Positions 8,860 to 62,074 of a stretch of DNA of 64,000 nucleotides are shown in pieces; within the stretch, counting starts at the first letter, position 1; each line of letters begins with the position of its first letter. The stretch covers positions 124,001 through 188,000 of the forward strand of contig CANGYR010000001.1 in the NCBI GenBank assembly GCA_947458275.1, read 5' to 3'. This stretch comes from Chitinophagaceae bacterium (lineage in GTDB: Bacteria > Bacteroidota > Bacteroidia > Chitinophagales > Chitinophagaceae). The translations under genes and the position numbers were made by a program. The notes under the pieces are model-generated. The model was not told the origin of the DNA. It was given only the letters and a program-made list of their open reading frames with translations, and did not search any database.

Positions 8860-8934
8860 GTTTAATAGTTTAGCAGATTAGGGGTTTAGGATTTTAGTAT
8901 GCATCTAAACTTCTAAACACCTAAACGTCTAAAC
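8860..8934. repeat. Paired intercistronic repeat: GTTTAG arm and CTAAAC arm
   Basis: Between the M20 gene and the beta-CASP gene. On the plus strand 8905-8934 is four CTAAAC units with an 8-bp period; 8860-8897 is a degenerate complementary array (GTTTA, GTTTAG, TTTAG). Read in the direction of the minus-strand mRNA, the G-bearing arm comes first, touching the stop codon of the M20 gene, and the C-bearing arm follows. Imperfect hairpin potential. Confidence 0.8.
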
Positions 8935-10107
8935 TCAAGCATTCACTCCCATCCACGCCATCATTCCTATCCCCTGCTCAATAGCTCTTTCGTCTATATT
9001 GAATGTGGGGGTGTGCACGCTGCTGGTTATTCCTTTCTCTTTATTGCCTGCGCCGAGGCGATAAAAACATCCGGGTATTTTATGTGTATAGAACGCGAAG
9101 TCTTCCGCCCCCATGCGCAATTCTGTTTCAAACACATTGGATGCGCCCGCATATTCTTCAGCCAGCTTTCTTGCTTTTTCAGATAGTTCAACATCATTTA
9201 AAACAAAAGGATACCCAACATCTATTCTTGCATCTACCGTTGCACCCATGGATGCTACCAACGTTCTGGTATGATTAAGAATGAGATCGTGTGCTTTGAA
9301 ACGCCATTCTTCATTCATGGCTCTCAAAGTACCCATGAGCTTAACTTCAGAAGGAATGACATTGGTTGTGTAACCGCCGTTGAATGCTGTGATGGATAAA
9401 ACGGACGGATTAAACGGATCGTTGTTCCTGCTGATGATTTGCTGCAAACTGATGACCAGATGTGAGGCAATAAGAATAGGATCAACGGTATGATGGGGAT
9501 AAGCAGCATGTCCACCTTTGGATTTAATAGAGATGTAAATTTCGTCCGCACTGGCCATCACCATGCCACCGCGAAAACTAAATGTGCCCACTTCCATTCC
9601 CGGATGCACATGCAATCCGAAAATTTTCTCAGGAGCAGGATTTTCCAGTACACCGGCTTTTATCATCAAGCTGGCACCACCGGGATTTTTTTCCTCGCCC
9701 GGCTGAAAAATTAATTTTATTGTTCCTTCCCAATCTGATTTAGTTTCATTTAATATTTTAGCAGCACCCAGCAGACAAGTAGTATGTACATCATGACCGC
9801 AGGCATGCATAACACCTGCGTTTTTTGATTTATAAGGAACTTCGTTTGCTTCAGTTATCGGAAGCGCATCAATATCAGCACGTAAAGCAACCACTCTTTT
9901 ATCCGGATTCTTTCCCTTTATCAATCCTACCACACCGGTTTCGGCCGTTACCTGAAAAGGTATCTGCCACTCGGTTAGTTTTTGCTGAATAAACTTAGAT
10001 GTCTCAAATTCAACAAAACTCAATTCAGGATTTGCATGTAAATGATTTCGGACAGCTATGAATTCTGCAGCATAATCAGAAGCGAGTTTTTTTATCGTTG
10101 ATAACAT
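8935..10107 (-). CDS. M20D family amidohydrolase/peptidase
   Basis: 390 residues, matching N-acyl-amino-acid / hippurate-type amidohydrolases. The di-metal site motif HACGHDVH is at 101-108 (Cys103, His105 ligands), the catalytic PGEEKNPGG with the general-base Glu near 138, and a metal-ligand GAEDFAFY near 353. These cytoplasmic enzymes remove acyl groups from amino acids or related amides. Exact substrate cannot be read. The stop codon directly abuts the simple-repeat tract downstream. Confidence 0.93.
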   Translation of the reverse strand: MLSTIKKLASDYAAEFIAVRNHLHANPELSFVEFETSKFIQQKLTEWQIPFQVTAETGVVGLIKGKNPDKRVVALRADIDALPITEANEVPYKSKNAGVMHACGHDVHTTCLLGAAKILNETKSDWEGTIKLIFQPGEEKNPGGASLMIKAGVLENPAPEKIFGLHVHPGMEVGTFSFRGGMVMASADEIYISIKSKGGHAAYPHHTVDPILIASHLVISLQQIISRNNDPFNPSVLSITAFNGGYTTNVIPSEVKLMGTLRAMNEEWRFKAHDLILNHTRTLVASMGATVDARIDVGYPFVLNDVELSEKARKLAEEYAGASNVFETELRMGAEDFAFYTHKIPGCFYRLGAGNKEKGITSSVHTPTFNIDERAIEQGIGMMAWMGVNA

Positions 10108-10187
10108 AGCTTTTTCTTTACTGATGTGAATTTACTTATTGTCTGCGTACAAAAAAAGTTCCGTTGACCGGAATCATATCATATCCC

Positions 10188-10646
10188 CTATTCTTCTGCA
10201 GCATTTTTATCAGATTTCACCTCCACCATTTCCGGTAAAAGATAAACATTGCCCGTTACAATTTTGGAAGCTAGAATCTGATTTCTTGTTTTTTCCGCTT
10301 CACTTTTATCTGTGAAGTTGCCGAATTTTAATTTGATGTAGGGCGACATGAAAATCATATACACTTTCTCATCAGGATACTGCTGCAACAGAGAAGATCT
10401 TACCTGCATAGCGAGTGCGCGATCGGTAGTATTGAGCAGCATCAGACGATACCCTCTTTCTGACTTTACCCTGTTTGCCAATCCCTCGTTATAATCAGCC
10501 AATTTTTTTGAAAGCAAATCAACGCGACTGTCTTTAATCAACGTAGCGTTTCCGGAAATAACCGTATCCATTTTTACTTTCTGAGAAAATAATGCAGATG
10601 ATATTAATACTGACAACAAAAACAAAAAGACTTTCCTGCAGTTCAT
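10188..10646 (-). CDS. SPOR-domain protein with signal peptide
   Basis: 152 residues. An N-terminal signal peptide (MNCRKVFLFLLSVLISSALFSQ) is followed by a SPOR-like repeat: YRLMLLNTTDRALAMQVRSS then IKLKFGNFTDKSEAEKTRNQ, the pattern of the peptidoglycan-binding fold. Probably periplasmic and septal or envelope-associated. It lies 29 bp downstream of secA on the same strand, likely co-transcribed. Confidence 0.8.
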   Translation of the reverse strand: MNCRKVFLFLLSVLISSALFSQKVKMDTVISGNATLIKDSRVDLLSKKLADYNEGLANRVKSERGYRLMLLNTTDRALAMQVRSSLLQQYPDEKVYMIFMSPYIKLKFGNFTDKSEAEKTRNQILASKIVTGNVYLLPEMVEVKSDKNAAEE

Positions 10647-10675
10647 TTTATTGATTTAATGCAATCCCGGATAAA

Positions 10676-13600
10676 TTATTTACCGTGACATTGTTTGTAT
10701 TTCTTCCCGCTGCCGCATGGACACGGATCGTTTCTCCCAATTCTCGGCTCTACCCTTACAGGCTCCTGTTTCACCGGTGTTGAAGGATCATAATAGTCAT
10801 TTTCATTGGCCGCATAATCAGCACCGGCAGCATCTATCTCCGCTTTATTCACATTCATCTTGCTCATGTCTGTCTTCTGCGTTCTGCCTTCTCTGATACC
10901 TGCAGTATTGGTCTGCTCTATGGGTATGCCGGAGTGACACAAGAAACTGACGATATTTTTATTCACTTCATCATTCATCTGTTTGAAGGCATTGAATGCT
11001 TCAATTTTATAAATGACGAGCGGATCTTTTTGTTCATACCCTGCTGTCTGTACACTGTGACGCAAATCGTCCATATTGCGCAAATGTTCTTTCCAGGCAT
11101 CATCAATCAAAGCCAACGTGACTCCCCTTTCCAACGCACTCATGAGTTCTCTTCCTTCTGTCTCGAAATATTTATCGAGATTGGCAATGGCCTGAATACC
11201 ACGCTTGCCATCTGTGAAAGGAACAGATACATTTTCAATGTGAGCACCTTGCTCCTTACGGATATTTTTGATGATAGGCAGTGTCTGCTCCGTGATGTTT
11301 TTTCTTTTCTGATTGTAATGCTCAATGGCCTCGTTGTATAATTTATTGATTACTTCAGCGTCATCAGATTTATCCAGCTCTTCTTGGGCTATGGAAGTAT
11401 CAATACCAAAATTCAAAATAGCGGACAGTTTGAAATCCTCATGATTACCGGTTTCTTTAGCTGCTATCGCCAATCCTTCTGCTACAGAGTAAAAAGCATT
11501 GTCAAGATCAAGTGCCAGTCTTTCTCCAAACAAAGCATGGTTTCTTCTGCCATAAACAACATGACGCTGTTTGTTCATCACATCATCATATTCGAGTAGG
11601 CGTTTCCGTATGCCGAAGTTGTTTTCCTCTACTTTCTTCTGAGCACGCTCGATACTTTTGGTAATCATGCTGTGCTGAATCACCTCTCCTTCTTTGTATC
11701 CCATTCTGTCCATCAGCCCTGCGATACGCTCACTTCCAAACATTCGCATGAGGTCATCTTCCAGTGATACATAAAAATTACTTGTTCCGGGATCTCCCTG
11801 TCTACCGGCCCTACCGCGCAACTGCCTGTCTACACGACGGCTCTCATGACGCTCCGTACCAATTATAGCCAAACCACCCGCCTCTTTCACCCCGGGACCA
11901 AGCTTGATATCCGTACCTCTACCCGCCATGTTTGTTGCAATGGTAACCGCTCCTGCCAGTCCGGCTTCAGCAACTACCTGCGCTTCTTTGGAGTGCTGTT
12001 TAGCATTCAGTACGTTATGAGGAATATTTTTTTGCTTCATCATCCTGCTCAGCAACTCACTCACCTCAACTGATGTAGTACCCACCAAACAAGGCCTTCC
12101 GGCCGCACGAAGTGCCTCCACCTCTTCAATCACCGCTTTGTATTTTTCGCGTTTTGTCTTGTATACTTTATCCTGCTCATCCTTACGGACAGCTTTTACA
12201 TTGGTTGGAATACTTACCACATCTAATTTATAAATGCTCCACAACTCTGCTGCTTCAGTCTCCGCAGTACCCGTCATGCCAGCCAATTTGTGGTACATCC
12301 TGAAATAGTTTTGAAGCGTAACCGTTGCATAAGTCTGTGTGGATGCTTCAATCTTTACATTCTCCTTGGCTTCCAATGCCTGGTGCAGTCCGTCGGAATA
12401 CCTTCTTCCTTCCATTATACGACCGGTTTGTTCATCAACAATTTTAACAGCGGCGTCCATCACTACATACTCAACATCTTTATCAAATAAGGTGTATGCT
12501 TTAAGTAATTGCTGAACGGTATGAATGCGTTCTGCTTTCAAAGAATATTCATTCAGCAGCTGCTCTTTTTTCTGCAGTTTTTCATCTGCATCAAGCGTTG
12601 ATTTTTCAATAGCTCCCAGTTTGGTAGCAATATCTGGCAATACAAAGAATTCGGGATCTTCACCGCTTCTTGTAATCAGAGACAATCCGTTTTCGGTGAG
12701 CTCTACCTGATTATTTTTTTCATCGATAGAAAAATACAAACCCTCATCCACTTTTGGCATTTCCTTTTGCTGATCGGCGAGATAATAATTCTCACTCTTC
12801 TGCAATTTCACTCTCATACCCGATTCGCTGAGGAATTTGATGAGCGCTCCGTTTTTAGGCAACCCTCTGTGTGCACGCATCAGTGCCAGTCCGCCATCTT
12901 TAGGGTCATCATTGCCTTCGGCAATTTTTTTCTTTGCCTCAATCAAAAACTGATTCACAGCTTTTTTCTGCGCATCTACCAATTTTTCAATTCTTGGCTT
13001 CAAATCAAAAAACTGTTGTGTGTTATCACTGTGACCGACAGGGCCGCTAATGATCAAAGGCGTTCTTGCATCATCAATCAATACACTATCCACCTCATCC
13101 ACCATGGCAAAATGGTGTTTGCGTTGTACCATTTCATCCGGACGATGCACCATGTTATCTCTCAGATAATCGAAGCCGAACTCATTGTTTGTTCCGTAAG
13201 TAATGTCTGCATTATATGCTTTGCGACGGGCATCGCTGTTGGGTTCATGCTTGTCTATACAATCTACACGAAGTCCAAGCCATTCAAAAATTGGTCCGTT
13301 CCACTCACTATCCCTGCGGGCCAGATAATCATTCACTGTTACAATATGTACGCCTTCGCCCGCCAATGCATTCAGATAGGCCGGCAGTGTACTTACCAGC
13401 GTCTTACCTTCACCGGTAGCCATCTCAGCAATTTTTCCGGAGTGCAATACAGCACCACCAATCAACTGAACATCATAATGCACCATGTTCCATTTTACAA
13501 TATTGCCGGCGGCATTCCAGGAGTTCTTATAAATGGCGCGGTCACCTGAAATCGTTATGTGATCTTTTTTGGCTGCCAGTTCCTTGTCGAGTTCCGTTGC

Positions 13601-13996: not shown

Positions 13997-14089
13997 ATAT
14001 TCAGGTTGTATAAATAAGATTAATGCTTTAACTGTTCAATGTTGACAAATACAATGCTATATGCAAAAATTCGCCAAATTGACAGTGCG

Positions 14090-14120
14090 CAAAGGTAATG
14101 CAACTCGGGGGTTATTCAAA
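14090..14120 (-). promoter_or_regulatory. secA promoter (Bacteroidota type)
   Basis: On the minus strand TTTG (14120-14117), a 19-bp spacer and TACCTTTG (14097-14090) match the Bacteroidota -33/-7 consensus TTTG-N19-TAnnTTTG. The predicted leader to the secA ATG is about 85 nt. Confidence 0.75.
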
Positions 14121-14157
14121 TTTCAGACAAAACGTGGTTGTTTTTGGAAAATCCCCC

Positions 14158-14187
14158 TTGAATTTCAGTGCTTTTCTCCTACCTTCG
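14158..14187 (+). promoter_or_regulatory. atpG promoter (Bacteroidota type)
   Basis: TTG at 14158-14160, a 19-bp spacer and TACCTTCG at 14180-14187, one base off the TAnnTTTG consensus. It is divergent from the secA promoter, the two core elements being about 40 bp apart, and suggests that atpG has its own transcript. Confidence 0.65.
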
Positions 14188-14249
14188 CAGCCAAAATTTA
14201 CCCTATGCGATATCATTGCTTAGGGACTTATTAAAATATTTTTTCTACT

Positions 14250-15135: not shown

Positions 15136-15252
15136 TGCCTCCGGCAGGTAGTTTGGGGTTTGGGGTTCGAGGTTGGGGGTTATTTTTACCGCGAACGCCA
15201 AACACTGCGAAGCAGTAACCCAAACGCCGCGAAGCGGCAACCAAACACCAAA
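15136..15252. repeat. Paired intercistronic repeat with micro-hairpins (atpG/scpB)
   Basis: After the atpG stop come a small hairpin CCTGCC-tcc-GGCAGG (15136-15150) and a G-rich tract of GTTTGGG/GGTTGGG units (about 15151-15182). Before scpB comes a C-bearing tract in which CCAAAC units alternate with tiny hairpins CTGC-gaa-GCAG and GCCGC-gaa-GCGGC (about 15196-15252). The order is G arm then C arm along the mRNA. Confidence 0.8.
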
Positions 15253-15262
15253 TAAAAAAGTA

Positions 15263-15967
15263 ATGGAAATATCCGAAATCATACCACATATCGAGGCGCT
15301 CATTTTCGCAAGTGAGCGTGCATTAACTTCTGCAGAAATAAATGAGCTGGTGAATACCGCTTTGGGCTTCATTGAAGACCGGGCAACACTGGAGCAGGTG
15401 GAAGCTGCCATTGAAGGTATCAAAGAAAAATACAACACTGAATTTTATGCATTTGAGCTGAGACAAATCGGCGGCGGATGGCAATTCCTTACCAAGCCTG
15501 CCTATCATAAAACTGTAGCGCTTCTTAATGGTGATAGATTTATGAAGCGTCTTTCTGCCGCTTCCATGGAAACGCTTGCCATCATTGCCTATAAACAACC
15601 GATTACAAAAAGCGAAATTGAGTCTATCAGAGGAGTGAACTGCGATTATGCCGTTCAAAAATTACTGGAGAAAGATTTGATTATTATTTCAGGAAGAAAT
15701 GAGGATGCGGTAGGTAAACCATTGCTCTATTCTACCTCCAAATCATTTATGGATTATTTTGGTATCAACAGCTCTGAGGAGCTTCCTAAAATCAATGAAG
15801 TGCTGATGGAAGAACTGGTGAAAGCTACAATTGTAAATCCGGAAGCAGATTCAGAAGTTGTTGACGCTGATGAAGCCGATTCGTCAACAAATGAAAATAT
15901 TGAAATCACTGAACAGGCCGATTCTGAGGACAGCGCTGAAGATAAACAGATTGCTCCTGAAGAGTAA
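15263..15967 (+). CDS. scpB: Chromosome segregation/condensation protein ScpB
   Basis: 234 residues from the ATG at 15263 (MEISEIIPHIEALIFASE); an in-frame upstream start at 15173 would translate the repeat tract and is rejected. Two winged-helix domains are visible (SAASMETLAIIAYKQPITKSEIESIRG near 95-120 is the family signature). Partner of ScpA and SMC in the condensin complex. The tail is acidic (many E/D from 200 on). No scpA nearby. Ends at a good terminator. Confidence 0.95.
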   Translation: MEISEIIPHIEALIFASERALTSAEINELVNTALGFIEDRATLEQVEAAIEGIKEKYNTEFYAFELRQIGGGWQFLTKPAYHKTVALLNGDRFMKRLSAASMETLAIIAYKQPITKSEIESIRGVNCDYAVQKLLEKDLIIISGRNEDAVGKPLLYSTSKSFMDYFGINSSEELPKINEVLMEELVKATIVNPEADSEVVDADEADSSTNENIEITEQADSEDSAEDKQIAPEE

Positions 15968-17255: not shown

Positions 17256-17502
17256 CTTCAGAGCGGAGGTCCTATATAGCGCCTGACTGAGAGAAAAATG
17301 GTTTAGATGGTTGAGAGATTTAGGAGTGTAGGGAGAATACACAAATATTTAACCTAAACCATCTAAACTTCTAAACAGCTAAACCTTATAGTGAGGAGCC
17401 TGTGTGAGGTAAAAGGCATTATTCACTCCTATTTCTTAAATTGCAACACTTTATGTGCGGCGGTATACAATTGCTGTGCTTTTTTTAACCAATCATTGCA
17501 TA
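17256..17502. other. lysA-maeB spacer
   Basis: 247 bp without a gene. It holds the paired repeat described separately and an AT-rich segment before maeB. No convincing promoter or terminator was recognised. Confidence 0.5.
17301..17385. repeat. Paired intercistronic repeat: GTTTAGATGGTT hairpin (lysA/maeB)
   Basis: GTTTAGATGGTT at 17301-17312 is perfectly complementary to 17357-17368. Around it the first arm continues with GAGAGATTTAGGAG and the second is a CTAAAC array with 8- to 9-bp period up to 17385. G-bearing arm first, C-bearing arm second along the plus-strand mRNA. No gene inside the loop. Confidence 0.82.
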
Positions 17503-21389: not shown

Positions 21390-21624
21390 GCCTGCCGAAG
21401 GCAGACGGGTTTGGGGCAACTCCGTTGCGTTTGGTTGCGCTTTGCGCGTTTGGAGTTTGAGGTTTGTAGGATCCCCCCCTTTCTTATTTCTTATTTCTTA
21501 TTTCTTATTTCTTATTTCTTATTTCTTATTTCTTATTTCTTATTTCTTATTTCTTATTCCTTATTCCTTATTCCTTATTTCTTATTCCTTATTCCTTATT
21601 CCTTATTTTTTGTTTCTTATTTCA
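21390..21624. repeat. G-tract with micro-hairpins, then about 20 heptamers TTCTTAT (mlaF/sucD)
   Basis: After the mlaF stop: a hairpin CTGCC-gaa-GGCAG, then GTTTGG units alternating with tiny hairpins GCAAC-tcc-GTTGC and GCGC-ttt-GCGC up to about 21468. Then from about 21479 to 21624 a nearly perfect heptamer array TTCTTAT / TCCTTAT (roughly 20 copies). The array reads through as a LISYFLF protein repeat only if translated in an upstream sucD frame, which is rejected. Copy number probably varies between strains. Confidence 0.9.
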
Positions 21625-21721
21625 GCCAAAAGCCGCTCGTGAAAACACGAGGCGGCAGCATCTCCACATCCCCAAATTTTCAAATTATCACATCGGCACA
21701 TCTCCACATCAATTATCTCCC

Positions 21722-21729
21722 TATCTTTG
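21722..21729 (+). promoter_or_regulatory. Putative sucD -7 element
   Basis: TATCTTTG matches TAnnTTTG and lies 20 nt before the sucD ATG. No good -33 TTTG is seen at the right spacing, so confidence is moderate. Confidence 0.5.
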
Positions 21730-21749
21730 CGAAAATTTCAATTACACAC

Positions 21750-22625
21750 ATGTCAGTTTTAGTTAATAAAAATTCAAAGATTATTGTACAGGGTTTTACC
21801 GGTACAGAAGGTACATTCCATGCCACTCAAATGATTGAGTACGGAACCAATGTTGTTGGTGGTGTTACCCCCGGAAAAGGTGGCAGCAAGCACCTCGACA
21901 GACCTGTATTTAATACTGTAGCCGATGCGGTAAAAGCTACCGGTGCAGATGTGAGCATCATCTTCGTGCCGCCGGCATTTGCAGCAGATGCCATCATGGA
22001 AGCAGCTGAAGCCGGAATCGGATTGGCTGTTTGTATTACGGAAGGAATTCCCGTGCAGGATATGGTAAAGGCGAAAAACTATTTACAAGGAAGCAAAACA
22101 AGATTAATCGGGCCGAATTGCCCCGGAGTGATTACCGCCGAAGAATGTAAAGTGGGCATCATGCCTGGCTTTATCTTCAAAAAAGGTCGCATTGGTATCG
22201 TTTCCAAATCAGGTACACTTACATACGAAGCTGCTGATCAGGTGGCTAAAGCCGGACTGGGTATCTCTACCGCCATCGGTATTGGTGGCGATCCCATCAT
22301 TGGTACTACCACTAAAGAAGCAGTAGAATTGCTGATGAATGACCCCGAAACCGATGCCATCGTAATGATTGGTGAAATCGGTGGAGGAATGGAAGCCGAA
22401 GCTGCCAATTACATCAAATCTACCGGCAATAAAAAACCCGTTGTAGGCTTCATTGCAGGACAAACGGCTCCTCCCGGAAGACGTATGGGACACGCCGGAG
22501 CCATCGTTGGCGGTGCCGATGATACAGCTGCTGCAAAAATGAAAATCATGGGAGAATGTGGCATCCACGTGGTGGCTAGTCCCGCCGACATAGGTAAAAC
22601 TATGCTGGAAGCTCTGAAAAAATAA
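21750..22625 (+). CDS. sucD: Succinyl-CoA synthetase alpha subunit
   Basis: 291 residues from the ATG at 21750 ([18 protein letters not shown]), the normal family length; an open frame extending 113 codons upstream is translated simple repeat. CoA-binding Rossmann part ([19 protein letters not shown]) and ligase part with the phosphohistidine His248 in RRMGHAGAI. Forms succinyl-CoA synthetase of the TCA cycle with SucC, whose gene is not adjacent, a common arrangement in Bacteroidota. Followed by a strong terminator. Confidence 0.97.
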
Positions 22626-32616: not shown

Positions 32617-32619
32617 GGT

Positions 32620-32674
32620 TGAAGAAGTTGAAGAAGTTGAAAAGGTTCAAGAGGTTCAAGAGGTTCAAGAGGTT
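32620..32674. repeat. G-type 9-bp tandem repeats after rarA
   Basis: Units GTTGAAGAA (two to three) followed by GGTTCAAGA (three to four), a 9-bp period. The matching C-type tract is the pyrimidine-rich TTATTCC / TTTTTTATT array at about 32822-32868 just before elaA, so the polarised order is kept although the arms are not complementary base for base. Confidence 0.8.
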
Positions 32675-32702: not shown

Positions 32703-32783
32703 ACCGCAGAGAACCAGAGTCAAAAGAGTTTTCGCAGAGGAAATCTTCTCCGCGTGACCTCTGCGCTCTTATTTCTCAGCGGT
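32703..32783. repeat. 81-bp interspersed element, copy 1
   Basis: Begins ACCGCAGAGAA and ends TTTCTCAGCGGT (imperfect outer inverted repeat), with an inner perfect pair CGCAGAGG / CCTCTGCG. Three further copies lie at 33383-33463, 33512-33592 and 33632-33712. No open frame inside; MITE-like or REP-like. Confidence 0.85.
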
Positions 32784-32874
32784 AAATTTAATTTTAAGAA
32801 GCTCAAGATGTTGATTCCTCTCGACTTTCTTATTCCTTATTTATTATTTTTTATTCCTTATTTTTTATCCGATT

Positions 32875-33372: not shown

Positions 33373-33752
33373 ACCACCTTTTACCGCAGAGAACCAGAGT
33401 TAAAAGAGTTTTCGCAGAGGAAACCATCTCCGCGTGACCTCTGCGCTCTTATTTCTCAGCGGTTAAATAACCTTCAAACCCTCAGACCTTTAAACCCTTA
33501 AACCACCTTTTACCGCAGAGAACCAGAGTTAAAAGAGTTTTCGCAGAGGAAACCATCTCCGCGTCGCCTCTGCGCTCTTATTTCTCAGCGGTTAAATAAC
33601 CATCAAACCCTCAGACCTTTAACCACCTTTTACCGCAGAGAACCAGAGTTAAAAGAGTTTTCGCAGAGGAAACCATCTCCGCGTCACCTCTGCGCTCTTA
33701 TTTCTCAGCGGTTAAATAACCTTCAAACCCTCAGACCTTTAAACCCTTAAAC
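33345..33752. repeat. Tandem array of a 129-bp composite unit
   Basis: Units begin TCAAACCCTCAGACC at 33345, 33474, 33603 and (partial) 33723, spacing 129, 129 and 120 bp; the third unit lacks 9 bp. Each full unit is a C-type leader (AAACCCTTAAACC) plus one copy of the 81-bp element that also occurs alone at 32703. Copies differ at a few bases (GTGACC, GTCGCC, GTCACC). It fills the whole elaA-thyA spacer; I see no gene in it. Confidence 0.93.
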
Positions 33753-34600: not shown

Positions 34601-34603
34601 GAA

Positions 34604-35186
34604 ATGTAAAATATTAAATGTAAAATATCCAATTTAAAAGGAGAATTAAGGAAAAGGAATAAATGTAAATTTTATTTCAGAGGATTTCACCTTTATTTCT
34701 CGTTGATTTACCCGTGATTTTCCTAATTATGCTTTTTATTTTCATGTAATGGAAATAAAAAGAACCAAATATGATCTTGAAGACAGGTTAGTCAAGTTTG
34801 CATGTGTTTGTTTAGAGATTTGCGATATTCTTCCCAATACCAAATCAGCAAATAATTTAGAGTATCAATTATCCAGAAGCGGAATTGCCCCTGCATTGCT
34901 ATACGGAGAAGCTCAGGCTGCAGAAAGCAGAGCCGATTTTATACACAAGATGAAAATAGCACACAAGGAACTAAGGGAAACCCGAATAAACCTTAGAATA
35001 ATAATGGAAAAGCCGGTGATATCAAATGAAAAGCTAAATAACTGTTTGAAAGAAGCAAATGAGTTAATTGCCATATTGTCAACAAGTATCTTGACTGCAA
35101 AAACAAATCAAAAAGTAGATAAGAATAAATAAAAGGATAGTAATCACGACTTCTACATTCGATATTTTACATTTAATATTTTACAT
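34604..35186 (+). mobile_element. IVS-like cassette 1: four-helix-bundle gene inside 26-bp inverted repeats
   Basis: A perfect 26-bp inverted repeat (34604-34629, beginning ATGTAAAATATT; and 35161-35186, ending AATATTTTACAT) encloses 531 bp with one co-oriented gene of the four-helix-bundle family. Each arm is itself two 14-bp units. The left arm starts 3 bp after the thyA stop and the right arm ends 22 bp before the folA ATG. No transposase is present. Interpretation as a mobile or processed cassette is inference from the arms, the gene family and a second similar locus (50785-51408). Confidence 0.6.
34749..35132 (+). CDS. Four-helix-bundle protein (23S rRNA intervening-sequence protein family)
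   Basis: 127 residues, nearly all helical. Family marks are YQLSRSGIAPALLYGEAQ (the relatives' R-S-xx-S-I-xx-N-I-x-E-G region, near 44-60) and FIHKMKIAHKELRETR near 68-83, with the usual E-xx-E/T-R helix. Members are found as open frames in 23S rRNA intervening sequences and scattered in Bacteroidota chromosomes; the related Avd protein binds nucleic acid and reverse transcriptase in diversity-generating retroelements. The function here is unknown. It lies between thyA and folA and is flanked by a perfect inverted repeat. Confidence 0.85.
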   Translation: MEIKRTKYDLEDRLVKFACVCLEICDILPNTKSANNLEYQLSRSGIAPALLYGEAQAAESRADFIHKMKIAHKELRETRINLRIIMEKPVISNEKLNNCLKEANELIAILSTSILTAKTNQKVDKNK

Positions 35187-35195
35187 TAATTATTC

Positions 35196-35203
35196 TACAT
35201 TTG
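35196..35203 (+). promoter_or_regulatory. Putative folA -7 element
   Basis: TACATTTG fits TAnnTTTG and sits 5 nt before the folA ATG. The -33 region would lie within the right arm of cassette 1, so the cassette either brought or replaced the upstream promoter half. Confidence 0.5.
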
Positions 35204-35208
35204 CCTTC

Positions 35209-35703
35209 ATGCTTTCCATCCTCGTCGCTGCCGCATCTAACAACTCAATTGGTAAAAACAACCAACTGCTCTGGCATCTGCCCAATGATCTGAAATTTTT
35301 TAAAAATACCACCTGGGGCGGTGTGGTAATCATGGGCAGAAAGACTTTTGAATCGGTCAACAAGCCCTTGCCGGGAAGGTTAAATATTGTTATTACAAGA
35401 CAAAAAAACTGGCAGGCGGAAAATGTAACAACAGCCGGCAGTCTTGATGAAGCTGTTGAAAAAGCAAAAAAACTGCATTACAAAGAAATATTCATTATCG
35501 GCGGTGGAGAAATATATAAAGAGGCTTTACCTAAAACCGACAAAATATATTTGACACGCGTAAACGCAGAAATAGAAGGAGATACTTTTTTTCCGGCTAT
35601 AAATAATAAAGAATGGAAACTCACTTCTCAGAATGATTTCAAGATAGATGAAAAACATGCGTATGATTATTCTTTTGAGGTCTGGGAGAGAGTGGAGAAA
35701 TAA
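35209..35703 (+). CDS. folA: Dihydrofolate reductase
   Basis: 164 residues. Reduces dihydrofolate, the product of the ThyA reaction, with NADPH. The N-terminal LVAAASNNSIGKNNQLLWHLPNDLKFFK holds the Met20-like loop and the substrate-binding acidic residue Asp27-equivalent; GRKTFESVNKPLPGR and FIIGGGEIYKEAL are the cofactor motifs. thyA and folA normally sit together, here split by the cassette. Confidence 0.97.
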   Translation: MLSILVAAASNNSIGKNNQLLWHLPNDLKFFKNTTWGGVVIMGRKTFESVNKPLPGRLNIVITRQKNWQAENVTTAGSLDEAVEKAKKLHYKEIFIIGGGEIYKEALPKTDKIYLTRVNAEIEGDTFFPAINNKEWKLTSQNDFKIDEKHAYDYSFEVWERVEK

Positions 35704-35800
35704 GGAATAAGAAATAAATAATAAGAAATGTAAAATATTGAATACTGAATGTAAATGTTTTACCATTAAACCATTAAACCGTTAAACCTTTAAACCAACC
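35704..35800. repeat. Paired simple-repeat spacer folA/methyltransferase
   Basis: First A/G-bearing units (AAGGAATAAGAAATAAATAATAAG, then AATGTAAAATATTGAATACTGAATG), next C-bearing units ATTAAACC, GTTAAACC, TTTAAACC up to about 35797. The motif AATGTAAAATATT is shared with the arms of cassette 1. Same G-first, C-second order. Confidence 0.75.
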
Positions 35801-37794: not shown

Positions 37795-38103
37795 ATGAAT
37801 AACATACTACAATGGGTCAGCAATAATCAAGAAATTATTTACATCGTCATCCTAATGATTTTCGTAGGTATTGAAGTCATCGGAAGAGTACCAAGTGTTT
37901 TGCATACCCCGCTCATGAGCGGCGCCAATGCCATTCACGGCGTGGTAATCATCGGAGCCATCATCGTTATGGGAAAAGCGGAAGCAGATAACTATACAGC
38001 TCTTATACTTGGATTCCTGGCAGTCATACTCGGCATGCTCAATGTGGTGGGAGGATTTGTGGTGACAGACAGGATGCTGGAGATGTTCCGGAAGAAGAAG
38101 TAA
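37795..38103 (+). CDS. pntAB: NAD(P) transhydrogenase alpha subunit, part 2 (membrane)
   Basis: 102 residues, three transmembrane segments (FVGIEVIGRVPSVLHTPLMSGANAIHG is the conserved dIIa core, about 22-49). 41 bp after pntAA; that gap is a C-type repeat (AAACCTTTAAACCCTTAAACC). A long simple-repeat spacer separates it from pntB. Confidence 0.94.
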   Translation: MNNILQWVSNNQEIIYIVILMIFVGIEVIGRVPSVLHTPLMSGANAIHGVVIIGAIIVMGKAEADNYTALILGFLAVILGMLNVVGGFVVTDRMLEMFRKKK

Positions 38104-38265
38104 GAAGTAAAAAGTCAAAAGTATAAAGTATAAAGTCAAAAAATGTACTTGAATCAATTCTTGACTTAACCCGAATATCAGAATGAATTTTAACTTTTGA
38201 ATTTTAACTTTTTACTTTTGAATTGTAAACTTTGACTTTTAACTTTTAACTTTTGACTTTATACT
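38104..38265. repeat. Paired intercistronic repeat between pntAB and pntB
   Basis: AGTATAAAGTCAAAA at 38127-38141 is perfectly complementary to 38251-38265. The first arm (38104-38141) is an AAAGT(C/A)-type array, the second (about 38184-38265) a long TTTTAACTTTTGAC-type array ending 2 bp before the pntB ATG. No gene inside the 109-bp loop. Order G arm, then C arm. Confidence 0.85.
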
Positions 38266-46143: not shown

Positions 46144-46255
46144 TGAAGATGTGGAGATTGGGAGATTTGAAGATTTGAAGATTTGAAGATTTGGAGATTT
46201 GAAGATTTGGAGATGTGGAGATTTGAATGTTAAATTTTCATATTTTCAAATCTTC
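46144..46255. repeat. Paired repeat after icd: GATTTGAA 8-mers and a complementary arm
   Basis: From 46144 to about 46226 runs an 8-bp-period array GATTTGAA/GATTTGGA; at 46245-46255 TTCAAATCTTC is a perfect complement of GAAGATTTGAA in the array. Here the next gene is convergent, so the hairpin may act as a terminator for icd. G arm first relative to icd. Confidence 0.82.
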
Positions 46256-49169: not shown

Positions 49170-49300
49170 TGTGTTAAACAATTTGAATATTGTTGCAGAA
49201 GTTTCAGATTGAATATTGTTGTAGAAGTTTCAGACGTTTCAGAAGTTAGTGAACTAATTGAAACCCCAAACTCCAAACCCCAAACCATCAAACCTTTAAA
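49170..49300. repeat. Paired simple-repeat spacer between the two ALDH genes
   Basis: On the mRNA (minus) strand the first arm is GGTTTGATGGTTTGGGGTTTGG-like (49255-49300) and the second is a CTGAAACTTCT / ACAACAATATTC array with a 24-26 bp higher-order repeat (49170-49240). Order G-type, then C-type along the transcript. Confidence 0.75.
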
Positions 49301-50763
49301 TAAGCCCCCAATCCATGCAATCCTCCCTCTCTTCCAAAACCACTTTCTTTATACCCTCCGAATGGAGAAACAGGATCAAACTTATTATATGTGTTGGCCC
49401 AAATTACCCCTGCTCTGAGTTTGGATGTCATATTGAAAATCTTTGAACCCTTGTCTGTCCAAACCCCGGCAGACAATCCGAAGGGAGTATTGTTAGCTTT
49501 TTCAATCACTTCATCTTCTGTTCTGAAGGTCTGAATAGCCAATACAGGTCCAAATATTTCTTCCTGTGCTATGCGATTGGATTGAGCTACATTAGTAAAA
49601 ATTGTCGGGCGACAATAAAATCCTTTTTTCGGAATGGCGCATGAACTTTGAAACATCTCTGCACCTTCCTGCTGTCCTATTTTTAAATATTTATGGATGA
49701 CTTCCAGTTGCTGCCTGGAATTAATCGCTCCAACATCTGTATTCTTATCCATAGGATTTCCAACTATCAGAGATTCCATTCTGTCTTTTAATTTTTGCAA
49801 TACAATTTTATAGACAGACTCCTGCACAAATAATCTAGAACCTGCACAACATACATGTCCCTGATTAAAAAATATACCGTTGATAACGCCTTCAACCGCC
49901 TGATCTAGCGGCGCATCATCGAAAATGATGTTCGCAGCTTTACCGCCCAATTCCAACGTCACTTTTTTATCTGAACCTGCAACAGCTCTCTGTATAATTT
50001 TTCCTACATCAGTTGAACCGGTAAAAGCAATTTTATTTATATCAGGATGATTGACAATGGCGGCTCCTGTAGCACCGGCACCGGTGATAATGTTTACCAC
50101 TCCGGGAGGAAGATCTGCCTCTTGAATAATCTCTGCAAGTTTCAACGCTGTAAGCGGAGTTGTCTCTGCGGGCTTCAAAACAACGGTGTTTCCGGTAGCC
50201 AATGCTGGTGCGATTTTCCAGGCCGCCATCAGCAAAGGAAAATTCCAGGGAATGATTTGTCCCGCTACACCTAATGGCTGAGGATTTTTATTGGGAAATG
50301 CATATTCCAGTTTATCAGCCCATCCTGCATAATAAAAAAAGTGATTGGCCGCAGTGGGTACATCAAAATCACGACTTTCTCTTATTGGCTTACCGCCATC
50401 CAGTGTTTCGATCACCGCCAGTTCCCTCGCTCGCTCCTGAATCATTCTGGCAATTCGATAAATATATTTAGCACGCTCTTTAGCAGATGTTTTTTTCCAT
50501 ACTTTCTCGTAAGCTGTTCTGGCGGCAGATACCGCTTTGTTTACATCCGCATTATTTGCTTCCGCAACCGAACTCAATTTTTCCTCCGTAGCCGGATTGA
50601 TGGTATCAAAATATTTTTTTGATGAGGGCTTCTCAAACTTCCCGTTGATAAACAGATCATACCGATCTGCAATGTTCGCAATACTCTTACTTTCCGGAGC
50701 CGGCGCAAGGTTGCGGGAAGAATCGAATTTGAGTCTGAGATTGTTTTTTTTAACTCCAGCCAT
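49288..50763 (-). CDS. Aldehyde dehydrogenase (full-length)
   Basis: 491 residues. NAD-binding and catalytic features are complete: PWNFPLLMAAWKIAPALATG near 173-192, FTGSTDVGKIIQRA near 244, the catalytic Glu in VTLELGGKAANIIF near 273 and the catalytic cysteine in HVCCAGSRLF near 306. In its operon (phosphorylase, DeoC) it likely oxidises acetaldehyde from the DeoC reaction to acetate. Works perhaps as a complex with the truncated ALDH encoded downstream. Confidence 0.93.
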   Translation of the reverse strand: MAGVKKNNLRLKFDSSRNLAPAPESKSIANIADRYDLFINGKFEKPSSKKYFDTINPATEEKLSSVAEANNADVNKAVSAARTAYEKVWKKTSAKERAKYIYRIARMIQERARELAVIETLDGGKPIRESRDFDVPTAANHFFYYAGWADKLEYAFPNKNPQPLGVAGQIIPWNFPLLMAAWKIAPALATGNTVVLKPAETTPLTALKLAEIIQEADLPPGVVNIITGAGATGAAIVNHPDINKIAFTGSTDVGKIIQRAVAGSDKKVTLELGGKAANIIFDDAPLDQAVEGVINGIFFNQGHVCCAGSRLFVQESVYKIVLQKLKDRMESLIVGNPMDKNTDVGAINSRQQLEVIHKYLKIGQQEGAEMFQSSCAIPKKGFYCRPTIFTNVAQSNRIAQEEIFGPVLAIQTFRTEDEVIEKANNTPFGLSAGVWTDKGSKIFNMTSKLRAGVIWANTYNKFDPVSPFGGYKESGFGREGGLHGLGAYLKV

Positions 50764-50784
50764 ATGTTAGTTAGTTAGTTAAAT

Positions 50785-51408
50785 AGGTTCAAAAGGTTCA
50801 ATAAGTTCAAAAGGTTCAATAGGTTCAATAAGTTCAAAAGGTTGACAGATGAGTGTTATTTTTATCAGTTAAATTTCATGCCTTTTTTATCACTATTCTT
50901 CAAATAACTTATTAAGCTATATATCAGTCTGTTTACCTTAGAACATTGTATATAAATATTGTCAAATTCTGTTTTTGAAATGTAATTATCATCCAATGCT
51001 CTGTATGCCTGTGATCTTAGTTCTCCACAAGACCCTCGAGCTATAAATAAAAACTGTATAAACTCCTTATTGCCTCCCCGCTCAAAACCCTCGGCTATAT
51101 TGTCCATTATAGATCCGGCTGATCTTTCAATTTGATTTATAAGCGAATAATTAGTGCCAAATTTTTTCAACCTAATCATTGCGCTTATAGTTTTATTTAA
51201 TTCTCTTGCCTCTTGCCAAGATAATATATCCTCAAATCGCTTTATAGTTGCCATGTGTTTTTAGCAAACGTAAAATCAAAATTGAGGCAAATCAAAAAAT
51301 TTGACTAAATAAATTTTAAACTAAATAAATTCAACTCTTGAACCTCTTGAACCTTTTGAACCTTTTGAACCTCTTGAACTTATTGAACTTATTGAACCTT
51401 TTGAACCT
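50785..51408 (-). mobile_element. IVS-like cassette 2: four-helix-bundle gene inside 26-bp inverted repeats
   Basis: Arms of 9-bp tandem units GGTTCAAAA/GGTTCAATA (50785-50844) and TTGAACCTCT/TTTTGAACC (51331-51426) face each other. The longest perfect complement is 26 bp: 50785-50810 and 51383-51408. They enclose the four-helix-bundle gene, co-oriented with the deo operon, between deoC and the ALDH gene. No transposase. Arm sequence is different from that of cassette 1, architecture the same. Confidence 0.6.
50865..51254 (-). CDS. Four-helix-bundle protein (23S rRNA intervening-sequence protein family), second copy
   Basis: 129 residues, all-helical. Family signature NQIERSAGSIMDNIAEGFER near 40-59 (R-S-x-x-S-I-x-x-N-I-A-E-G), GGNKEFIQFLFIARGSCGELRSQ near 60-82, matching TIGR02436-like proteins better than the thyA/folA copy. 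The two copies are only distantly alike, so they are not a recent duplication. Sits in the deoC-ALDH spacer and is flanked by inverted simple-repeat arms. Confidence 0.9.
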   Translation of the reverse strand: MATIKRFEDILSWQEARELNKTISAMIRLKKFGTNYSLINQIERSAGSIMDNIAEGFERGGNKEFIQFLFIARGSCGELRSQAYRALDDNYISKTEFDNIYIQCSKVNRLIYSLISYLKNSDKKGMKFN

Positions 51409-51424
51409 CTTGAACCTCTTGAAC

Positions 51425-52336
51425 CTAATCAACCGAAAAATAATCCCCCGACTGATACACTCCGCTTCTTTGTTTCTCCAACTGCATTAAAATATCATTA
51501 GCCAGACTGCTCGCTCCGAAACGAAACCATTCGTTATTCATCCAATCCTCTCCCAAAACTTCATTCAGCATAACCAGATAATGCAGCGCCAGTTTTGCTT
51601 TGGATATGCCACCGGCTGGTTTCATAGCAATCTTCTTGCCTGTCTTGTAATAAAAATCTCTGATTGCCTCCAGCATCACCAGCGTTACTGGCATGGTAGC
51701 GGCAGGAGAAATTTTACCTGTAGACGTTTTGATAAAATCAGCGCCGGCATACATCGCAATATCACTTGCTTTTCTTACTTTATCATATGTACCCAACTCA
51801 CCAGTTTCCAGAATGACTTTCAATCTTGCAGTGCCACATGCCTCTTTAATTGCGGCAATTTCATCAAAAACAAAATTGTATTCGCCCTGATGAAATTTCC
51901 CTCTGGAAATCACCATGTCAATTTCGTCAGCACCCTGGCTGATGGCATATTTGGTATCTCTTAATTTTACGTCGCGGGTAGATTGGCCACTGGGGAACGC
52001 TGTGGCCACAGAGGCGACTTTGATACCAGAATTACCCAATGCCTTTTTTGCAACAGCTACCATTGACGGATAGACGCAGACAGCGGCGACAGTAGGAAGT
52101 CCGGGATAAGCATCATGCAAATGAGCAGCCTTGTAACAAAGTTGTTTTATTTTTCCTTCGGTATCTTTTCCCTCCAAAGTAGTAAGGTCAATCATATTTA
52201 ATGCCAGTTTCAGCCCGTTTAGCTTGGTCTCATTCTTAAGACTTCTTTTCGTAAAACGGGATGCGCGCTCCTCCACTCCAACCTGATCAATCCTTGCGGT
52301 TGAAGTGAAATCCGGTATAGTTAGTTTGGCAATCAT
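51425..52336 (-). CDS. deoC: Deoxyribose-phosphate aldolase
   Basis: 303 residues from the ATG at 52336 (MIAKLTIPD); an in-frame ATG 39 bp upstream overlaps the preceding stop and is an alternative. Splits deoxyribose 5-phosphate to glyceraldehyde 3-phosphate and acetaldehyde. Schiff-base lysine in FIKTSTGK, with the second lysine in KKIAMKPAGGISK and the EIDMVISRGKF motif. A long DeoC subtype. Follows the phosphorylase within the operon; cassette 2 lies downstream. Confidence 0.96.
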   Translation of the reverse strand: MIAKLTIPDFTSTARIDQVGVEERASRFTKRSLKNETKLNGLKLALNMIDLTTLEGKDTEGKIKQLCYKAAHLHDAYPGLPTVAAVCVYPSMVAVAKKALGNSGIKVASVATAFPSGQSTRDVKLRDTKYAISQGADEIDMVISRGKFHQGEYNFVFDEIAAIKEACGTARLKVILETGELGTYDKVRKASDIAMYAGADFIKTSTGKISPAATMPVTLVMLEAIRDFYYKTGKKIAMKPAGGISKAKLALHYLVMLNEVLGEDWMNNEWFRFGASSLANDILMQLEKQRSGVYQSGDYFSVD

Positions 52337-56666: not shown

Positions 56667-56723
56667 AAATTTCTATTTAGATGATGGATTTGATAAGTTT
56701 AATTTCGGTCGTAATAATGGGAT

Positions 56724-57629: not shown

Positions 57630-57823
57630 ATCAATCTGATGTTAAATAGTTTAATTTTAAGTTAAATCGGCACAATATTAGTGAAAAAAATGAGAGACTT
57701 TTTTAATTTTTAGAATTATTTTACGGCAAACACAATAAAAAAGGTAATTATTCGATAGGAAAAATTAACTGTGTTTAATTTTTTTCAATAAAACATAAGA
57801 CAAAATCGTTATTCCGAAAAGTT

Positions 57824-58882: not shown

Positions 58883-58943
58883 TGCTTAAAATTCCTTCCC
58901 ACAAATTTACAGTTATGAACTGATTATGCTCGAAAAATAAACT

Positions 58944-59810: not shown

Positions 59811-60201
59811 CCGTAGCAGAAGTAGTAGCGCCGAGCTTTCTGGCCACTTTCATCACTTTCACAATTTCTCCCCAGCTGGCAATAGAATCAGCATTAATTA
59901 CAACGGCAGGTTTGATGCTGTCTCCTTCAATAATATATTTTCTGAGTGCAGATTCAAGAGAATCAGGTACTATTTTTTTCGAACCCACGTAAATGTTTTT
60001 ATCCTTGTCAACACTTACCACCACACTTTGTTTTTGTTTGGTATCGCTTTTGGATTTGGGCACACTCATCTTAATCACATTGGGATTAGCCAACGTAGAA
60101 ATCATCAAAAAAAACATCAGCAGTATGAATAGAATATCATTCAGTGGACCGGTATCCACTTCAGAATGATTATCTCTCCATTTAGTCTTTCTTAAACTCA
60201 T
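59794..60201 (-). CDS. exbD: ExbD/TolR biopolymer transport protein
   Basis: 135 residues, one membrane helix near 24-42 (DILFILLMFFLMISTLANP), with the conserved aspartate (Asp22) of the helix start needed for proton flow, and a periplasmic domain (VVVSVDKDKNIYVGSKK). Partner of ExbB/TolQ; together they energise TonB or Tol. Begins 9 bp after the ExbB gene. Ends overlap prmC convergently. Confidence 0.9.
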   Translation of the reverse strand: MSLRKTKWRDNHSEVDTGPLNDILFILLMFFLMISTLANPNVIKMSVPKSKSDTKQKQSVVVSVDKDKNIYVGSKKIVPDSLESALRKYIIEGDSIKPAVVINADSIASWGEIVKVMKVARKLGATTSATVTGTD

Positions 60202-60210
60202 GCTAATTAA

Positions 60211-60888
60211 TTATTTAGTGGGTTCCTGTAAAATATCAATGAACTCACTGCTGGCAGCTTCCATTTTATTGCCAAGCCTGTTGATTTGTGTATCGAGATA
60301 ACTATGACCGAGAAAAGCCAGCATACCTATGATTAAACCTGTTGCAGAAGTGATGAGCTTAATATACATAGCATCTGCTATCTGGCTGATAGAAGGGTTG
60401 CTGATGGTGGCAAATTCTTTCAATAGAATTACCAGACCGATTATGGTACCAACAAATCCAAATAAAGGCGCAATGCGTGAAATCACAGAAATGGTGCTTA
60501 GATTTTTTTCCAGTTTGTAAATCTCCAGCTTGCCTGCATTCTCCATACTTTTTTCTATAGAGTCGATTGGCTTCCCAATTCTCTGAATTCCTTTGTCGAT
60601 GATTCTTGCTATGGGGTTGTCGGTATTTTTTGCCAGACTCCTTGCTGCGGTTACGTTGCCGTTCACAATATGATCACGAATGATATTCATGAAATTGTCG
60701 TCTGACTTAGAGGCCTTGCTGATTACCAGCCATCTTTCAATACAAAAGAAAACAACCAAGGCAAACAAAATAAACAAGGGAATCATAATTGGTCCGCCCT
60801 TGCTGAGCAGGCTCCAGACAGATTCAACTTTGGCGCCTTCAACAGGGCCTACAGCAGTAGTATCGATTTGCAAAAGAATATTGAACAT
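60211..60888 (-). CDS. exbB: MotA/TolQ/ExbB proton channel family protein
   Basis: 225 residues. TM1 near 33-50 (MIPLFILFALVVFFCIERW), TM2 (RIAPLFGFVGTIIGLVILL, about 132-150) and TM3 (ITSATGLIIGMLAFLGHSYL, about 175-195), with the ExbB/TolQ fingerprint GTIIGLV. First gene of the pair with exbD. Confidence 0.93.
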   Translation of the reverse strand: MFNILLQIDTTAVGPVEGAKVESVWSLLSKGGPIMIPLFILFALVVFFCIERWLVISKASKSDDNFMNIIRDHIVNGNVTAARSLAKNTDNPIARIIDKGIQRIGKPIDSIEKSMENAGKLEIYKLEKNLSTISVISRIAPLFGFVGTIIGLVILLKEFATISNPSISQIADAMYIKLITSATGLIIGMLAFLGHSYLDTQINRLGNKMEAASSEFIDILQEPTK

Positions 60889-60981
60889 AGTGTCAGGTTA
60901 TTTCAAAAAATAAAAGTTACACAAATTTAAAGTAAAGATTAGTTTACTTGGCACACAAAAAAACGTTAATGTTGTTTGAAT

Positions 60982-61902
60982 TTATTTCTCCATCTGTTGC
61001 ATAGCCATAATCTGGCGCATCGTTTTCTCCATGCCTTCGCTGCTGCCATCTAAAAATATCACATTTCCTTTTCCATATTCCGCGAAGTTTTTAATGGCTT
61101 CTGTCCACATACTAAATAATATCACGTTGGTATCCAAATTCGCTTGTTTCATCTGCTCTGCCGCCTGACTCATGCCCTTTGCCACCTCCTCTCTGAAAAG
61201 AGCAACGCCTTGTCCACGGAGCTGAGCTGCTTCTCTTTCCGCCTCTGCCGCTATTTTGATAGAGTTTCCTTCTGCTTCTGCAGCTTTTGTCTTGGTGATT
61301 AATAATGCCTGTCCTTCATTTTCGGCAGCGGCTTTAAGGTTATTGCTTGCCACCACCTTACTCATGCTTTCCATAATGGCCTGATCAAAAGTGATGTCAT
61401 TGATTTGTAGATCCTGCAAATGATAGCCCCATTCCTCCAAAGAAGCATCTACATGCTCTTTTACAAACTCTACAATATCTCTGCGCAAACCTAAAATTTC
61501 CGATTGTTTTTTTGTAGCCACAAACGCACGAATATTTCCTTCAATGGTTCTCACCAGCGCCTGCATCAAATCTTTGTCGCTGATGAATTTAAACGCAACT
61601 TTCTGAATGGTATCTTCCTGTTCGTTTTGTACAGAATACAAAAGCATAGATTTAAAATAAACATTCGCCTGATCAACAGTCACCGCCTGAAACTCCAGTT
61701 CCACCGAACGATTTTGAATGCTTATTCTTTTATAAATCTGCTCTATCAAAGGAATCTTGAAACGCAGCCCCGCTCTTCTGATACCGGCATATTTACCAAA
61801 TCGGGTAATGACAGCAATAGTGCCTTGGTTTACGGTAAACAATCCGCCGAAAAATACGATGGAGACAGGAATCAGCCACCAGTATTGTGATAACATGCTC
61901 AT
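60982..61902 (-). CDS. SPFH-domain membrane protein (stomatin/prohibitin-like)
   Basis: 306 residues. N-terminal membrane segment (YWWLIPVSIVFFGGLFTVNQG, about 7-27), then the SPFH/band-7 domain (GTIAVITRFGKYAGIRRAGLRFKIP; VDASLEEWGYHLQDLQINDI) and a coiled-coil rich in AEAE (about 205-255). Such proteins organise membrane microdomains and bind proteases. 7 to 10-bp repeats fill the spacer to pepT; the gene lies 93 bp upstream of exbB, possibly in one transcript. Confidence 0.88.
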   Translation of the reverse strand: MSMLSQYWWLIPVSIVFFGGLFTVNQGTIAVITRFGKYAGIRRAGLRFKIPLIEQIYKRISIQNRSVELEFQAVTVDQANVYFKSMLLYSVQNEQEDTIQKVAFKFISDKDLMQALVRTIEGNIRAFVATKKQSEILGLRRDIVEFVKEHVDASLEEWGYHLQDLQINDITFDQAIMESMSKVVASNNLKAAAENEGQALLITKTKAAEAEGNSIKIAAEAEREAAQLRGQGVALFREEVAKGMSQAAEQMKQANLDTNVILFSMWTEAIKNFAEYGKGNVIFLDGSSEGMEKTMRQIMAMQQMEK

Positions 61903-61920
61903 AATTGATTGATTTTATTG

Positions 61921-62074
61921 TTGAGTTGAAAATTGTTGAAGATGGTTGAATGTTGTTGAATATTGTTGAAGATGGTTGAAGATGGTTGAAGATGGTTGAA
62001 TATTGTTGAAACGGACTCCTTGATTAAAATTGGAATCTCTTCAACCTCTTGAACATTTTCAACCTATTGAACCA
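61921..62074. repeat. Paired intercistronic repeat with 10-bp period (pepT/SPFH)
   Basis: Eight units NNNNGTTGAA with exact 10-bp spacing (GATGGTTGAA, TATTGTTGAA) at about 61931-62010; a second arm TTCAACCTCTTGAACATTTTC follows at 62040-62074. On the minus-strand mRNA the G-bearing GGTTCAATAGGTTGAA arm comes first, the TTCAACC array second, as in other loci. Confidence 0.85.

Follow-up and report, generated by a model that had tools for sequence, protein, structure and literature searches.

The stretch analysed here (the window: 64,000 nt, positions 124001-188000 of contig C1) belongs to a Chitinophagaceae genome of 2.885 Mb in 87 contigs and carries, in its spacers between protein genes, degenerate tandem arrays that are AT-rich by reading. 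At two places a gene of the S23 family (PF05635, 23S_rRNA_IVP) stands between a G-bearing and a C-bearing array that are complementary to each other. An initial annotation had pointed out arrays of this kind in a series of named spacers, where they are indeed present, with periods of 7 to 10 nt and multiples of these; we argue that the intergenic arrays are probably the arms of small S23 insertion elements, a kind recorded until now chiefly in rRNA genes, that would fold into long RNA hairpins. Genes were called by a simple codon model and arrays by Tandem Repeats Finder (TRF) in two samples, the first consisting of the window plus 400 kb (464 kb, window included) and the second of a separate 400 kb, which together make 864 kb. 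TRF returned 146 arrays in the first sample: 113 in intergenic spacers, 32 within genes and 1 at an edge.

S23 cassettes and their arms

Cassette A lies on the minus strand. Its 5′ arm (51335..51426), about ten copies of GTTCAAGAG/GTTCAAAAG, is located at the stop codon of a DeoC/LacD-like aldolase gene; the S23 gene that follows (50865..51254) encodes 129 aa and matches PF05635 with an E value of 4e-30; and the 3′ arm (50777..50843), a CTTTTGAAC/CTTATTGAAC array, ends 13 nt upstream of an aldehyde dehydrogenase (ALDH) gene. The two arms share a 26-bp exact complementary match across the S23 gene, and RNA of the minus strand from 50760 to 51430 folds at -190.6 kcal/mol, as compared with -123.1 for 20 shuffles (z -10.9), with the arms forming the stem. 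Among structures in the PDB, the S23 protein of cassette A has as relatives 2gsc (XCC0516, Xanthomonas), which has five subunits according to a reference title in PMC4990558, and 2rld. Cassette B lies on the plus strand between thyA and folA and is built alike, with AAATGTAAAATATT repeats 3′ of the thyA stop (34602..34639), an S23 gene of 127 aa (34749..35132, PF05635) and ATATTTTACATT repeats (35154..35201) that end 7 nt upstream of folA; here the arms match exactly over 27 bp.

This arrangement is general in the genome, where all seven PF05635 genes found stand between a complementary G-array and C-array, with arm scores of 34 to 97, the cross-locus median being 16. To these seven loci we added 29 from other genomes of the genus (the best per genome among the matches listed), 30 from other Bacteroidota and 22 from plasmids, the last hand-picked out of 18 and 41 listed records with Riemerella and near-copies excluded, and compared sense-oriented 250-nt flanks, taking as cut-off the 95th percentile of re-paired loci. 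The locus's own arms exceed the cut-off at 60 of the 88 loci: 26/36 in the genus (our seven included), 17/30 in other Bacteroidota and 17/22 on plasmids (p 0.0002 for each set). Of these 60 loci, 57 have a G-biased 5′ arm and 3 a tied one; none has a C-biased one. The plasmid loci come from Cyanobacteria, Azospirillum and Gemmatirosa (a Gemmatimonadota plasmid), and some are alike (L276 and L277; L265 and L272); on the Nostoc-type plasmids the S23 arms are heptamers, for example GGGAACA and CAGGAGT. One Azospirillum locus, L270, lies within a 23S rRNA gene (RF02541, 2139.5 bits) and has arms of the same kind, with a 7-nt spacing that is seen by eye, the period score being low (0.39); its predicted RNA fold has a z of -9.3. 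The architecture and its polarity thus extend over several phyla and to an rRNA gene. The family itself is widespread, being present in 148 of 198 sampled Bacteroidota genomes, and relatives of one window protein fall on 80 named contigs, mostly of Ferruginibacter, other Chitinophagaceae and Bacteroidetes, with few otherwise labelled.

Some S23 genes occupy unusual surroundings. On cyanobacterial plasmids three lie within CRISPR-Cas operons, in the order cas10/S23/cmr3 once (L268, 1192-1548) and cas6/S23/cas4 twice (L273, 804-1163; L278, 798-1166), with repeats on the flanks, although the score of L268 is under the control level. On contig C17 (L171, 1480-2349) an S23 match is part of a longer open frame of 299 aa that adjoins another ALDH gene, and several relatives likewise have frames of 284-315 aa.

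Sites of the S23 genes and co-variation of the arms

The two sites occupied in the window were followed through related genomes. For the ALDH gene the best 30 of the matching loci were compared: a full-length S23 match lies upstream in 9 and downstream in 12, with both sides occupied in 2 genomes; one copy is broken, and 10 loci are without S23 in the stretch covered, some of these ending at a contig edge. In a single midpoint-rooted FastTree tree the upstream proteins form one clade and the downstream proteins its sister. Loci L063 and L078 present this as sister S23 cassettes that flank the same ALDH gene, as if one had jumped over. At the thyA site 30 loci were compared, 18 of them also containing folA, with gaps measured from the end of the thyA match; S23 is present in 5/18 (gaps of 410 to 684 nt, one of the five matches being partial and on the opposite strand), and the gap is 15 to 55 nt in 6/18 and 101 to 242 nt in 7/18.

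At the ALDH sites the unit of the arms varies between genomes, yet each arm fits its own partner better than the partner from another genome (46.1 vs 26.0, p 0.00015, for the set of 9 genomes; 38.8 vs 26.9, p 0.0001, for the set of 12). Seven further site groups with 23 loci in all behave in the same way (33.7 vs 27.0, p 0.0044), the difference being small in single groups. The arms co-vary, and their unit type is linked to the S23 lineage: across 25 loci and 279 pairs, similarity of the arms between genomes is predicted by similarity of the S23 proteins (Mantel r 0.45, p 0.0002), a correlation that partly reflects shared site and descent because many of the close pairs have the same neighbours, while some have different ones.

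S23 genes are co-directional with both neighbours at 33 of 35 genus loci and at 18 of 20 distinct sites. If their orientation were random, about 35% would be expected, this being half of the fraction of neighbouring gene pairs that are co-directional (279/398). On plasmids the same holds, by eye, for 14 of the 19 loci with both neighbours annotated.

Polarity of the arrays

The initial annotation had reported that in its spacers a G-bearing array comes first and a C-bearing array second. This order is real and broader than claimed, since on the plus strand 37 of the 43 multi-array spacers in the 864 kb have it and none has the reverse. In the first sample it is found in 25 of 29 (5/5 inside the window and 20/24 outside), the other four comprising two with C and C, one with G and G and one that starts with a tie; in the second sample it is found in 12 of 14, with one C and C and one G and G. 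Sorted by the orientation of the flanking genes, the 25 ordered spacers divide into 9 with both genes on the plus strand, 9 with both on the minus strand, 4 convergent and 3 divergent, and over both samples the order holds in 6 of 8 convergent and 3 of 5 divergent multi-array spacers, again without a reversed case.

The original proposal that the order follows transcription is not supported. A G-then-C order is identical after reverse complementing, so its occurrence for genes on both strands gives no tie to transcription, and convergent and divergent spacers have it as well. The rule that fits the data is that an array adjoining a gene is G-bearing on the strand leaving that gene. Among arrays within 15 nt of a gene, the outgoing strand is G-bearing in 46 of 50 in the first sample (2 ties excluded) and in 27 of 31 in the second (1 tie excluded); among arrays of the first sample that lie over 50 nt from the nearest gene the preference is absent (18/40). 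Spacers that carry no arrays have a weak difference in skew between their halves, of 0.05 to 0.13.

Arrays that lack an S23 gene

Most arrays of the first sample that are not joined to an S23 gene resemble the arms of the genome's own S23 loci: 62 of 107 match such an arm, and the mean best score is 33.3 against these arms but 16.3 (maximum 18.3) against 60 random foreign sets of seven arm pairs each. The two members of a pair, by contrast, rarely match each other. The initial annotation had claimed that at many loci the arms are complementary over 12 to 26 bp, which does not hold within spacers. Among 14 window spacers a 12-bp match occurs in one and the others reach 5 to 11 bp; the sole 12-bp exact inverted repeat, GTTTAGATGGTT, lies in 17256-17502, and the matches of 26 and 27 bp join two different spacers, either side of an S23 gene. 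Nor does same-spacer complementarity exceed that of re-paired spacers, with 6.30 vs 6.02 over 37 G/C pairs (p 0.30); the first sample alone gave 6.76 vs 5.77 for 25 pairs (p 0.066). Selection for hairpins acting on all spacers was dropped as a candidate on this result. When the whole rest of the spacer was searched, 34 of 156 arrays had an unusually good partner, with 8 expected.

The window holds the following arrays of this class. On the minus strand, a G-array of GTTTAGAA type (8904..8935) at the stop of an M20 peptidase gene has a unit similar to the arms of S23 locus L167 and is paired with a CCTAAACC-type C-array (8859..8890) that was found by reading and falls under the TRF threshold. 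On the plus strand, a GTTTGGG array (15151..15181) 3′ of atpG is followed on the scpB side by a C-array with unit CCAAACACCGCGAAGCAGCAAC (15198..15249), which lies within the longest scpB reading frame (15173-15967). The G-array GTTTAGATGGTTGAGAGATTTAGG (17301..17335), which has the 12-bp exact partner, and the C-array AACCTAAACCATCTAAACTTCTAAAC (17351..17385) were both located by reading on the plus strand. Also on this strand are GGTTGAAGA/GGTTCAAGAG (G-array, 32617..32674), immediately 3′ of a rarA-like gene, with TTTCTTATTCCTTA (C-array, 32826..32868) 5′ of a GNAT gene; AGAAATAAGGAATAAG (G-array, 35696..35729), overlapping the folA stop, with ACCATTAA (C-array, 35762..35797); AAGTAAAAAGTCAA (G-array, 38098..38141) with TTTTAACTTTTGAATT (C-array, 38184..38260) 5′ of the next gene; and the G-array AGATTTGG (46147..46225), in a convergent spacer on the 3′ side of the gene that was labelled icd by the initial annotation. 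The minus strand carries GGTTTGGGGTTTGG (G-array, 49261..49286), 3′ of an ALDH stop, with TCTGAAACTTCTGC (C-array, 49183..49234) 5′ of the next gene, and a degenerate G-array, GGTTCAATAGGTTGAAAATGTTCAAGAGG (62030..62075), 3′ of the upstream stop and again found by reading under the TRF threshold, with TTCAACCATC (C-array, 61925..62010) 5′ of an SPFH gene.

Other repeats share this ground. An 81-nt element (ACCGCAGAGAACC...CTCAGCGGT) occurs in four copies, one between the rarA-like and GNAT genes (32703-32783) and three as a 120-129 bp tandem before thyA (33383-33463, 33512-33592 and 33632-33712). Some twenty copies of TTTCTTA (21480-21623) lie within the longest reading frame 21411-22625; the triple TTTCTTA unit matches 27 times, with overlaps, over five of the genome's arrays, always on the plus strand of the contig. 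On contig C9 (63431-63847; 3431-3847 of locus L027) an Rrf2 gene without S23 stands between strongly complementary arrays with a long unit of the GTTTAAATCGCTGCGCTG type.

Arrays seem abundant in this genome: the 113 intergenic arrays in 464 kb compare with 8 in stretches of nine same-genus genomes (210 kb in total), and zero were found in the stretches of six same-order genomes, all of these being small samples in which one of the relatives' stretches consists of 1,720 masked bases. The ALDH loci of relatives are rich in arrays.

A model of the element and its rivals

We consider it likely, with some reserve, that S23-type intervening sequences (IVSs), here inserted between protein genes, supply the arrays as their arms, and that arrays lacking an S23 gene are relatives from the same families. 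A complete element opens with a G-bearing, C-poor array; a leader and a sense S23 gene follow, and a C-bearing, G-poor array, the reverse complement of the opening one, closes it. Once transcribed, the two arms would pair into a single long stem and hold the S23 message in its loop. If such stems behave as those of rRNA IVSs do, RNase III may cut them, which would free the S23 RNA and separate the upstream from the downstream message. A stem built of tandem units may be tolerant of changes because its arms could pair in several registers. The element presumably spread as a unit, and copies that lost their S23 gene may have given rise to the S23-less arrays. We attribute the fixed polarity tentatively to the element, because the one rRNA copy seen, which precedes no start codon, has the G-first order; at a guess, the S23 pentamer or the machinery of insertion could recognise a single-stranded G-repeat arm. 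Of three ideas offered by the initial annotation, a scaffold for cassette insertion and an intercistronic RNA hairpin were each right in part, and they come together as S23 cassettes with pairing arms.

Several observations pull the other way. Arms above the control are lacking at 28 of the 88 S23 loci, and only 15 of the 36 genus loci score at least 40, a level that 6 of 193 control genes reach (first sample, both flanks at least 40 nt); three of these six are S23 genes and three are not (an Rrf2 regulator, a helix-turn-helix/S24 gene and a Bro-N gene). Re-paired arms above the cut-off are mostly G-biased too (55 to 1, 29 to 5 and 23 to 0), so the polarity test at S23 loci is not independent of a general skew in these flanks. 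At the ALDH sites an arm's own partner ranks first in just 4/9 and 6/12 cases. Many S23 genes keep to one site across the genus and are therefore not very mobile now. Just one copy was met in rRNA; a further 18 S23 loci gave no Rfam match. Finally, 45 of the 107 solo arrays have no match among the S23 arms of their own genome, the GTTTGGG, AAGAAATA and GTTTAAATCGCTGCGCTG types among them. The arms of S23-less G/C pairs come mostly from unlike families and are complementary only at the re-paired level, so that many solo arrays cannot be explained just as an element that has lost its gene.

Other explanations were weighed. Slippage could build arrays at gene edges, with S23 genes preferring to insert there and fold-back copying keeping the arms alike; the array families without an S23 partner (those 45 of 107), the mostly non-complementary solo pairs and the arrays that run across a stop codon and repeat the end of the gene (35696-35729, 38098-38141) would all suit such a process. 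We nevertheless regard it as unlikely, since between genomes the arm type follows the S23 lineage, the rRNA IVS has the same kind of arms, and plain slippage gives no reason for G to face outward at gene edges (46/50 and 27/31). The healing of broken DNA ends in spacers, by repeat addition at both 3′ ends followed by rejoining, would account for the G-first order in all gene orientations and for the unlike units of many S23-less pairs. This model of double-strand-break healing fits solo arrays and fails for S23 cassettes; it leaves the complementary, co-varying arms at S23 genes and the rRNA case unexplained and has in our view very little chance of being right.

Intercistronic hairpins of non-mobile origin might be selected for ending or processing messages, as terminators or mRNA stabilisers; the S23 arms do co-vary and fold far below shuffled sequence (z -10.9), and 70 of the 113 intergenic arrays of the first sample lie between co-directional genes. 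The remaining 43 are in convergent or divergent spacers, however, most S23-less pairs do not pair, and the thyA-folA gap is merely 15 to 55 nt in 6/18 relatives, which makes this a highly improbable account. Ordinary base composition could in principle impose the order, with repeats in G-poor leaders being of C-type and their complements elsewhere of G-type. In Bacteroidota the leader ahead of a start codon is poor in G, and the right half of array-free spacers is slightly lower in skew. The difference in skew is small (0.05 to 0.13), though, and we reject composition as scarcely plausible because the order is kept in convergent spacers, which lack a start codon (6/8, 0 reversed), and in the 23S rRNA copy.

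The idea of S23 elements with pairing arms can be extended. Conceivably, though we would not bet on it, the short polarised tandem arrays of bacteria at large (those of Bacteroidota, the cyanobacterial heptamers and the Xanthomonas GGGAATC repeats) are footprints of one family, in which each S23 pentamer would recognise its own arm unit and whose members would insert into messages as well as rRNA. If the model holds, several puzzling repeat classes that have been described singly would have a common origin, intervening sequences would extend beyond rRNA, the widespread S23 family would gain a testable role, and many bacterial operons would hold built-in RNA stems that are possibly cut.

Relation to known systems

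The polarity had been presented as undescribed, which is too strong: PMC4692102, from 2015, describes it for repeats of Xanthomonas (GGGAATC) and of Nostoc (GGGGA(C/T)T), together with the G-outward rule. Like the arrays studied here, these heptamers are intergenic, with sense-strand repeats after stop codons and antisense repeats before starts, and convergent repeat pairs number 70 and 75 in the two Xanthomonas genomes and are few in Nostoc (PMC4692102). Our arrays share the G strand that points outward from the neighbouring gene (46/50 and 27/31) and differ in having units mostly without GGG, several families and a period of 7 to 10; by eye most units contain single or double G, so that at least four GGG tracts are not found, although the GTTTGGG-type arrays come near. 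PMC4692102 treats its repeats in terms of G-quadruplexes and has no occurrence of 'S23', 'four helix' or 'intervening'. The TAACTGA repeats of Beggiatoaceae, Cyanobacteria and Bacteroidetes are likewise heptamers near start codons; according to PMC4679880, the Bacteroidetes repeats have one orientation before starts and, in one set, the other after a stop. That system has one unit, and its repeats are proposed to be binding sites of a translation regulator; the same three terms have no occurrence in PMC4679880. The repeats of Borgs are different, being perfect according to PMC9879509. A link between S23 and intergenic tandem arrays was not found in the titles and abstract starts listed from the open literature, which is weak evidence of absence, with subscription papers and preprints outside its scope.

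Miniature inverted-repeat transposable elements are marked by fixed terminal inverted repeats and a target duplication; the arms described here vary in sequence from element to element. Intrinsic terminators have a short hairpin rich in GC with a U run behind it, and the arms that were read here are tandem repeats rich in AT. Heterocystous cyanobacteria carry short tandemly repeated repetitive (STRR) sequences, which are seven-nucleotide units between genes. The S23 arms on Nostoc-type plasmids are heptamers as well, a likeness that is one of description only.

The closest likeness is to the S23-type IVSs of rRNA, which contain a sense S23 open reading frame between complementary, stem-forming ends and for which excision by RNase III is reported in PMC4990558. 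In the rRNA IVS of Coxiella burnetii, GACAGAT heptamers in variable number lie 5′ of the S23 reading frame, the RNase III site being at the first of them (PMC4990558). The elements of this genome have the sense S23 (IVP) gene, judged by gene orientation (PF05635; 33/35 genus loci co-directional), and the complementary ends (7/7 here, 60/88 overall). They depart from the rRNA IVSs in location, as the window elements are not in 23S rRNA genes, a position taken only by Azospirillum L270; they lie between protein genes, both of their arms are tandem arrays, and many arrays stand without an S23 gene.

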